Below are positions 27,453-33,992 of a stretch of DNA of 64,000 bases, piece after piece. The stretch is taken from assembly GCF_001429245.1 (NCBI RefSeq), contig NZ_LMJE01000008.1, positions 310,001 to 374,000 of the forward strand. Direction: 5' to 3'. A program made the position numbers and the translations under genes. Positions within the stretch are counted from its first letter, which is position 1. The number at the start of each line of letters is the position of its first letter. The notes under the pieces were generated by a model. That model had not been told where the DNA came from and made no database searches. It saw only the letters and a list, made by a program, of their open reading frames with translations. The DNA comes from Rhizobium sp. Root274. GTDB taxonomy: Bacteria > Pseudomonadota > Alphaproteobacteria > Rhizobiales > Rhizobiaceae.

Positions 27453-28460
<1,008 letters not shown>

Positions 28461-28505
28461 CAGCCTTTCAGCCCCGATAGGGCGGCCCAAGACAGGGACA
28501 CGACG

Positions 28506-29699
<1,194 letters not shown>

Positions 29700-29700
29700 C

Positions 29701-29919
29701 ATGAATACGAGAGTCATCGTCGCGGTCGCGGTGCTGGCTCTCATTGCCTGCTGGTTTTGGTGGCAGGAAGAGGAAAAGTGGTGTGATGGGTTCTACCAGG
29801 ATGCATCACCGGCAGCGTTCACAGTGTGTTTGCCCCTTTCTCCCTTCGTCGCCTTCGGCATCGTCACAACTTGCTGCGTCGTCATCATATGGATGAAACT
29901 TCGCAAGAGCTCACGGTAG
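29701..29919 (+). CDS. Small two-helix membrane protein embedded in the suc operon
   Basis: A 72-residue frame whose ATG follows the sucC stop by one base and whose stop lies 16 bases before sucD. Two hydrophobic helices are predicted, residues 5-20 ([16 protein letters not shown]) and 45-63 ([15 protein letters not shown] and onwards), joined by an acidic/aromatic loop with a Cys (EEEKWCDGF) and ending in a basic tail (KLRKSSR), so the C terminus is probably cytoplasmic. I do not recognise a family. The tight spacing suggests real coupled translation. Confidence 0.6.
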
Positions 29920-29935
29920 AGATCGGGATCAACGC

Positions 29936-30838
29936 ATGTCCATTCTCGTGAATAAGAACACCAAGGTCCTCGTTCAGGGCCTGACCGGCAAGACCGGTAC
30001 CTTCCACACCGAACAGGCGCTTGCTTACTACGGCACGCAGATGGTCGGCGGTATCCACCCGAAGAAGGGTGGGGAAACCTGGACCGGCTCGAAGGGCGAA
30101 AGCCTGCCGATCTTTGCCTCGGTTGCTGAAGCCAAGGAACGCACCGGTGCTGACGCATCGGTCATCTACGTTCCGCCGGCAGGCGCTGCCGACGCGATCA
30201 TCGAGGCGATCGACGCCGAGATCCCGTTCATCACCTGCATCACCGAGGGTATCCCGGTCATGGATATGGTGAAGGTCAAGGCCCGTCTCGATAAGTCGAA
30301 GTCGCGCCTTCTCGGCCCAAACTGCCCGGGCATCCTGACGCCGGAAGAATGCAAGATCGGCATCATGCCGGGCTCGATCTTCCGCAAGGGTTCGGTCGGC
30401 ATTGTCTCGCGTTCGGGAACTCTTACATACGAAGCTGTGTTTCAGACCTCGAATGAAGGCCTCGGCCAGACGACCGCTGTCGGTATTGGCGGCGACCCGG
30501 TCAAGGGGACCGAATTCATCGACGTGCTCGAGATGTTCCTGGCCGATCCGGCCACGACCTCGATCATCATGATCGGCGAAATCGGCGGCTCGGCTGAAGA
30601 AGATGCAGCCCAGTTCCTCATCGACGAAGCCAAGAAGGGCCGCAAGAAGCCGATGGCCGGCTTCATCGCTGGCCGTACGGCTCCGAAGGGACGGACTATG
30701 GGTCACGCTGGCGCTGTGGTTTCCGGTGGCAAGGGCGATGCGGAATCCAAGATCGCTGCCATGGAAGCGGCCGGCATCAAGGTGTCGCCTTCTCCGGCGC
30801 GCCTCGGCAAGACCCTGGTCGAAGTCCTCAAGGGCTGA
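29936..30838 (+). CDS. sucD: Succinyl-CoA synthetase subunit alpha
   Basis: A 300-residue subunit with the CoA-binding Rossmann domain (opening [20 protein letters not shown]) and the phosphohistidine site His257 in [10 protein letters not shown]. With SucC it makes ATP from succinyl-CoA. Start ATG 29936 (MSILVNKNT). Confidence 0.98.
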
Positions 30839-30855
30839 GCCATCAGAAGTACAAG

Positions 30856-30890
30856 CCAGGCGAAGGGTTGCTGCGGCAACCTTCGCCTGG
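30856..30890 (+). promoter_or_regulatory. Long hairpin between sucD and sucA
   Basis: CCAGGCGAAGG pairs with CCTTCGCCTGG, and TTGC with GCAA after a one-base bulge, giving about 15 pairs around a 4-base loop. There is no T-run, so it could attenuate, protect or process the transcript between sucCD and sucAB rather than terminate it. Confidence 0.5.
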
Positions 30891-30995
30891 AATTCGCATC
30901 TCAGGACGATTCGCTCATCGAGCGTGCAGCGGCAGGCCGGGCATCCGGCCATCAATTTCTAGTCGGGAGGCGAGCAGAGACGCTCGCGAAACACC

Positions 30996-33992
<2,997 letters not shown>

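Follow-up and report, generated by a model that had tools for sequence, protein, structure and literature searches.

Taken together, the evidence suggests that the 72-codon open reading frame (ORF) lodged between sucC and sucD in the window, that is, the stretch of 64,000 nucleotides of Rhizobium sp. Root274 DNA analysed here, is a rare accessory gene of the Rhizobiaceae that would encode a predicted inner-membrane hairpin and that is probably carried as a translationally coupled passenger, not as a subunit or anchor of succinyl-CoA synthetase (SCS). The gene order is mdh-sucC-ORF-sucD-sucA-sucB, all on the plus strand; the genes that we take to be sucC, sucD and their operon neighbours were named from pathway knowledge and from the initial annotation, not from a family search. 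The placement reported in that annotation is accurate: a single base separates the sucC stop codon (TGA, 29697-29699) from the ATG at 29701, and 16 bases separate the stop codon of the ORF (TAG, 29917-29919) from the start of sucD at 29936 (Table 1). An 8-bp direct repeat, GATCAACG, flanks the ORF, with one copy at the end of sucC (29687-29694) and the other just before sucD (29927-29934); the sucC copy is absent in G482, a carrier from another genus, so that the repeat may be a coincidence.

Table 1. Features of the sucC-sucD junction in the window
Feature	Positions	Strand	Basis
sucC, upstream host gene	28506..29699	+	stop 1 nt before ORF start
72-codon ORF, predicted two-TM microprotein of no named family	29701..29919	+	4 other genomes with a homologue at this site; cross-genus omega 0.22-0.28
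Codons of predicted TM helix 1 (about residues 5-21), with conserved C17 and W18-F19-W20-W21	29713..29763	+	hydropathy peak; helix 3-34 in low-confidence model; alignment
Codons of predicted periplasmic acidic loop (residues 22-43), with conserved E23-E25, C28 and C43	29764..29829	+	invariant in 5/5 homologues; outside location from basic ends
Codons of predicted TM helix 2 (about residues 45-66), then basic tail	29833..29898	+	hydropathy peak; helix 48-71 in low-confidence model
16-bp spacer with GGGA ribosome-site-like motif of sucD (29925-29928)	29920..29935	+	sequence comparison of carriers
sucD, downstream host gene	29936..30838	+	matches at E 1e-100 or better in 380/394 family genomes

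So how widespread is the ORF? Within the genus it is present in four of the 63 genomes searched (the window's own, G000, and G003, G009 and G028), and the remaining 59 gave no match, a group that includes 54 of the 58 genomes with a completeness of 90% or more. Among 394 genomes of the family the search brought one strong addition, G482 (E 2.6e-28), which belongs to another Rhizobiaceae genus and is the only carrier among the nine genomes of that genus, its own assembly being 81% complete; an order-wide search of 397 genomes, in part the same as before, added nothing convincing. Weak profile matches in 16 genomes of the family search (E 5e-4 to 0.05) were treated as chance matches of membrane segments because most of them are partial, lie inside longer frames or contain stops, and one match of the order search (G643, E 2e-4) was treated likewise; a cyanobacterial match (L007) that covers 18 residues was also set aside. 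In all five carriers the ORF sits between sucC and sucD, in gaps of 234, 236 or 243 bp. Three relatives without the ORF (L055, L056 and L057) encode a SucD 99% identical to that of the window, and one of them, L056, is the window's partner on the sucC tree (support 90). In the quick trees, built for 41 loci (32 from the genus, out of 61, and nine others), the carriers stand among non-carriers and form no single clade, whether sucC or sucD+sucA is used. The presence of the ORF takes at least three changes on the sucD+sucA tree and four on the sucC tree, and the starred branches force equal numbers; the carriers are clustered on the former (3 of 500 shuffles are as low) and not significantly so on the latter (59 of 500), where 12 of the 38 inner branches are open. 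In G418 and G113, the closest measured relatives of G482 by sucD, the two genes lie 2 and 5 bp apart.

The composition of the ORF also sets it apart from the host operon, with a GC content of 0.54-0.55 against 0.59-0.62 in sucC and a GC3 of 0.61-0.68 against 0.76-0.81, although this lower GC may come in part from the codon usage of a short hydrophobic protein rather than from a foreign origin. The ORF thus has two of the traits of a passenger, being absent from most close relatives while the flanking genes are intact (43 of the 61 genus junctions measure 16-18 bp) and differing in composition from its surroundings, whereas a third, mobile-element machinery or a phage or plasmid source, was not found in the collections and selected inserts that were searched. 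Specifically, relatives of the ORF are absent from the phage, plasmid and viral-contig collections, and the origin as a phage or plasmid gene was rejected on that ground; no integrase turned up among the selection of insert proteins run against Pfam. Profile searches against Pfam, NCBIfam, PHROGs, PADLOC and PDB yielded nothing above the cut-off for the ORF product (no match at all in PADLOC or NCBIfam, none at a meaningful score in Pfam or PHROGs), and a Foldseek search with the low-confidence model returned a best E value of 4.2 and no match below 4. The idea of a defence gene was dropped given the lack of a PADLOC match; an RNA element was likewise discarded, with no Rfam match in 29400-30200, as were an internal promoter, with no promoter-like site in 28400-31100, and an internal terminator, terminator-like sites in the same interval occurring at the shuffled rate. 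The pattern of presence and absence would be best explained by recombination-driven exchange in the flanking genes; repeated loss of an old gene is a possible alternative.

A survey of the same junction in 120 family genomes, a non-random and mutually related sample (106 from the listed sucD matches and 14 from a second list), puts this distribution into a broader context. The sucC-sucD gap does not exceed 23 bp in 86 of these genomes, measures 39-90 bp in another 10 and reaches 195-1629 bp in the remaining 24; as the initial annotation held, the place of the ORF is unusual. Co-directional genes occupy 23 of the 24 long junctions, with none in L250 (195 bp); in 21 of the 24 the longest ORF itself runs in this direction. 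In 18, a co-directional ORF begins no more than 45 bp past the sucC stop (4-6 bp in 13), and in 23 one ends within 60 bp of sucD. The tenants are diverse, and BLASTP at E 1e-4 sorts them into more than ten clusters. A VapBC-like pair is found in nine long junctions, hence in nine of the 120 genomes (L193, L199, L208, L226, L229, L234, L244, L246 and L256), a cupin in six, a family of 207-225 aa with a signal-peptide-like start, as judged by eye, in five, DUF1579 in two and Uma2 in one. Several small membrane proteins of no known family are among the tenants, and at least four junction proteins (L185, L205, L237 and L261) are small with two or three hydrophobic helices. When single representatives were compared with Pfam, PIN, Cupin_2, DUF1579 and Uma2 scored above the cut-off and RHH_1 just above it; nothing exceeded the cut-off for the junction proteins of L185, L205, L212, L226, L259, L101 and L261 or for the 126-aa protein described below.

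In the genus of the window, 61 junctions could be measured, of which 43 span 16-18 bp, 17 hold an insert and one is an alignment artefact; a 98-bp gap (L095), where the sucC alignment ends at residue 370, was set aside. The inserts are the present ORF (4 genomes), another of 384 bp (12 genomes: L091, L093 and L103-L112) and one of 515 bp (a single genome). The 384-bp insert encodes a protein of 126-130 aa that belongs to no known family (the ORF was read out in six of the 12), and the adjacent sucD is 87-88% identical to that of the window in ten genomes and 96-97% identical in two. In the six that were read out, the acidic C-terminus of this protein, EEEEAE, is encoded by the purine-rich GAGGAAGAGGAAG, which resembles the sucD ribosome site, and the stop codon overlaps the sucD start (TAATG). 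Neither this protein nor the window ORF was found in the 120 other junctions surveyed.

Is this junction, then, exceptional within the operon? In its strong form, the notion of an exclusive hotspot at sucCD has to be rejected, since genes are also carried at sdhA-sdhB and sucA-sucB. The mdh-sucC gap never exceeds 154 bp (116 measured) and the sucD-sucA gap exceeds 343 bp once in 120 (824 bp); between sucA and sucB, 20 of the 120 loci (within L151-L270) hold a co-directional gene of about 105-110 aa that represents a single family, YCII, by a Pfam match of one representative. The window's own sucA-sucB gap is short and leaves no room for this gene. The sdhA-sdhB junction, which joins a tight pair of subunit genes as sucCD does, could be read in 15 of 40 stretches, the other 25 not containing sdh, and holds inserts of 391-761 bp in four of them (L272, L274, L296 and L304). 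Three of these four share a protein of about 155 aa without a Pfam match, for which the name DUF3052 was accordingly dropped, and one of the three also has a CPCC-domain gene. Repeated inserts are thus seen in two of the four control junctions, and in a third, sucD-sucA, once by length; therefore, gene insertion between subunit genes of the TCA cycle is a wider habit of the family, and what is distinctive of sucC-sucD is the variety of the inserted genes.

The manner in which the ORF is fitted between its neighbours suggests how it might be translated. Where the ORF is lacking, the relatives inspected mostly leave 15-19 bp between sucC and sucD, including a GAGGGACC-like ribosome site; in others the gap is -1 to 6 bp and the ribosome site can sit inside sucC (L125). 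In the carriers, this short spacer is replaced by the ORF followed by TAGAGATCGGGATCAACGC, which, stop codon included, is identical in G000 and G003, differs by one base in G482, and differs by two bases near its end in G028 and G009. The stop codon of the ORF differs as well in G009, where it is lost and the frame continues into sucD. Because stop and spacer are nearly identical among carriers of both genera, the ORF and the spacer appear to travel together. In G000, G003 and G009 one nucleotide separates the sucC stop from the ATG, and in G028 the two overlap (TGATG); in all four genus copies the anti-Shine-Dalgarno duplex upstream of the ORF amounts to -2.1 kcal/mol, with no convincing Shine-Dalgarno sequence. 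Termination-reinitiation would be the natural reading of this arrangement. Coupling by overlap is not universal, however, because in G482 the ORF starts 11 nt past the sucC stop and has a stronger apparent upstream duplex (-4.4 kcal/mol). For sucD, the duplex is weaker in the presence of the ORF, at -4.1 kcal/mol in all five carriers, compared to -6.1 in the genus relatives L055, L056 and L060 and to -5.7 and -6.9 kcal/mol in two further loci, all five of which lack the ORF.

The 72-aa product has two hydrophobic segments (15-residue Kyte-Doolittle maxima of 3.0 and 2.7) and a basic C-terminus, KLRKSSR, in agreement with the two-helix, basic-tail design predicted in the initial annotation, and an AlphaFold2 model from a five-sequence run consists of two long helices, at low confidence (pLDDT 69.6, pTM 0.36). 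According to the positive-inside rule, basic ends are cytoplasmic; hence both ends of the protein are predicted to lie in the cytoplasm and its acidic middle in the periplasm. In the alignment of the five copies, 36 of the 72 columns are invariant, including, in addition to the residues named in Table 1, the stretch A35-S-P-A-A39. The conserved loop cysteines, C28 and C43, could form a disulfide, and a disulfide-closed periplasmic loop on a membrane hairpin is a plausible picture of the protein as predicted from its sequence.

All of this presupposes that the ORF is a gene, and here the argument from its fit into the gap, which the initial annotation considered to speak against chance, turns out to be overstated: when the dinucleotides of the 236-bp gap are shuffled, an ATG-initiated ORF of at least 72 aa arises 271 times in 5000 (p of about 0.05). 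Given that the fit by itself is weak, the case for a gene rests on conservation. The refuting outcome named in the annotation, a frame lost in relatives with a gap of the same length, did not occur: all five genomes found with a gap of 234-243 bp keep it, with no internal stop and a single 3-nt indel, and the four same-genus copies have no frame-breaking indels and none at all inside the ORF. The G482 homologue, of 71 aa, is 63% identical over the full length with one one-codon gap, and its comparison with the four genus copies gives a dS of 1.1-1.5, a dN of 0.29-0.32 and an omega of 0.22-0.28 (Fisher p of 7e-5 against G000 and 2e-6 against G003, from rounded counts in two of the four pairs). 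Across genera, frame +0 is 64% identical, compared to 41-56% in the five other frames, and it is the sole frame that is free of stops in all five copies. The dN/dS test proposed in the annotation thus comes out in favour of a protein between genera, in what is a single cross-genus comparison with a genome 81% complete and in 110 contigs; it does not do so uniformly within the genus, where omega ranges from 0.20 to 0.86 with p < 0.05 in two of six pairs and where the six frames are about equally conserved (73-82%), so that, apart from lacking stops and internal indels, the genus copies contribute no further coding signal. Within the genus, the dS of the ORF is about half that of sucC and sucD, for which recent exchange or constraint at the RNA level are possible reasons; a long stretch of its first half is identical in DNA sequence in all four genus copies. 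Could the ORF, then, encode no functional protein and be a spacer left open by chance and recently inherited, perhaps serving as a translational relay from sucC to sucD? The shuffled gaps and the even conservation of frames among the genus copies leave room for this possibility, but we consider it very improbable, and reject a chance ORF on the cross-genus conservation: in G482, at a dS above 1 with a dN of about 0.3, the frame remains open and its length is kept to within one codon. Because the cross-genus signal is clear and the within-genus signal weak, the ORF, as had been proposed, appears to be a real gene, probably protein-coding, under moderate constraint.

If the ORF is a gene, does its product serve the enzyme whose subunit genes surround it? 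Succinyl-CoA synthetase is a soluble enzyme, unlike cytochrome bd, the membrane enzyme that CydX serves. One might nevertheless suppose that the microprotein, by binding SucC or SucD, anchors the enzyme to the membrane or regulates it there in a CydX-like manner, and the invariable location of the ORF between the two subunit genes, the predicted basic cytoplasmic tail and the recurrence of small helical proteins in at least four other junctions are compatible with such a role. We nevertheless regard this as improbable, and the recruitment of the enzyme to the membrane, one of two options offered in the initial annotation, finds no support here: the patchy distribution (59 genus genomes without a match, nearly identical SucD proteins without the ORF, no single clade of carriers on either tree) and the unrelated tenants of the same slot, among which the VapBC-like, cupin, DUF1579 and Uma2 proteins have no predicted helices, all disfavour it. 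The other option, an unrelated insertion, fits these same facts much better. A related proposal, which we hold to be unlikely in its specific form, is that the protein has an accessory function of its own apart from succinate metabolism, such as immunity, exclusion or stress response, and is kept through expression from an essential operon. The patchy presence of a protein of no known family, with two conserved cysteines in its predicted periplasmic loop, and the toxin-antitoxin-like pairs in nine of the long junctions point in this direction, whereas the searches of family, defence, phage and plasmid collections described above do not. This proposal is a refinement of the passenger interpretation and not its opposite.

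How does the passenger interpretation compare with known systems? Price et al. 2006 reportedly described genes that became inserted into existing operons after horizontal transfer. That transferred genes enter existing operons is also stated in general terms in PMC2259305, and the window ORF, being patchy, lower in GC, of no known family and co-directional within a conserved operon, resembles such genes; it can be classed as an operon-inserted accessory gene, a phenomenon already known in general. The differences are that the slot splits two subunit genes of one enzyme and is reused by unrelated genes, and that the cassette brings a ribosome motif for the downstream subunit. CydX and CydY/CydZ of the cydAB operons (PMC4325964) are likewise small membrane proteins encoded together with enzyme subunit genes, but CydX has 37 aa, is part of a membrane enzyme and tracks the CydA allele, whereas the window ORF encodes 72 aa with two predicted helices and its presence follows no allele of the partner enzyme on the sucC or sucD+sucA trees, which is where the analogy fails. 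The closest neighbours in kind are proteins of the slot itself, L185 (108 aa), L205 (112 aa) and L261 (99 aa), which share position, strand, small size and hydrophobicity with the window ORF and yet show no sequence similarity to it at BLASTP E 1e-4. Among the literature matches listed, nothing concerned a gene in the sucC-sucD junction, the search being blunt as 'sucC' was read as 'succ' (e.g. 'succinate'), and 'sucD' does not occur in the main text of a paper on the small proteome of S. meliloti (PMC10117765).

The passenger interpretation would entail the following chain of events. The sucC-sucD junction would have been entered by a self-contained cassette consisting of the ORF and the 16-bp spacer with a new ribosome-binding motif for sucD; ribosomes that finish sucC would re-initiate on the ORF and then pass to sucD, so that the ORF would be expressed together with the TCA operon and need no promoter. 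It would be retained and moved as one of several interchangeable passengers of this junction, probably via recombination in the conserved flanking genes. A more far-reaching generalisation, which we put forward tentatively and with rather less confidence than even, is that in the Rhizobiaceae the sucC-sucD boundary serves as a permanent cargo bay, a slot under translational coupling that would repeatedly take up unrelated small genes (for VapBC-like pairs, cupins, proteins with a signal peptide and several membrane microproteins of no known family, the window ORF included). These genes would pass from one divergent operon allele to another through recombination in the flanking core genes, with no dedicated integrase, and each would be read by re-initiation from sucC and would hand the ribosomes on to sucD.

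The finding adds a family of small membrane proteins without known relatives, found here in five genomes, and indicates that placement between two subunits of one enzyme is by itself no evidence that a microprotein serves that enzyme. If the generalisation to a reusable slot is true, it would offer a testable model, with no need of an integrase, for the way in which accessory genes come to be expressed by entering core metabolic operons, and would predict that the sucC:sucD stoichiometry is tuned, or else tolerated, with inserts as long as 1.6 kb.
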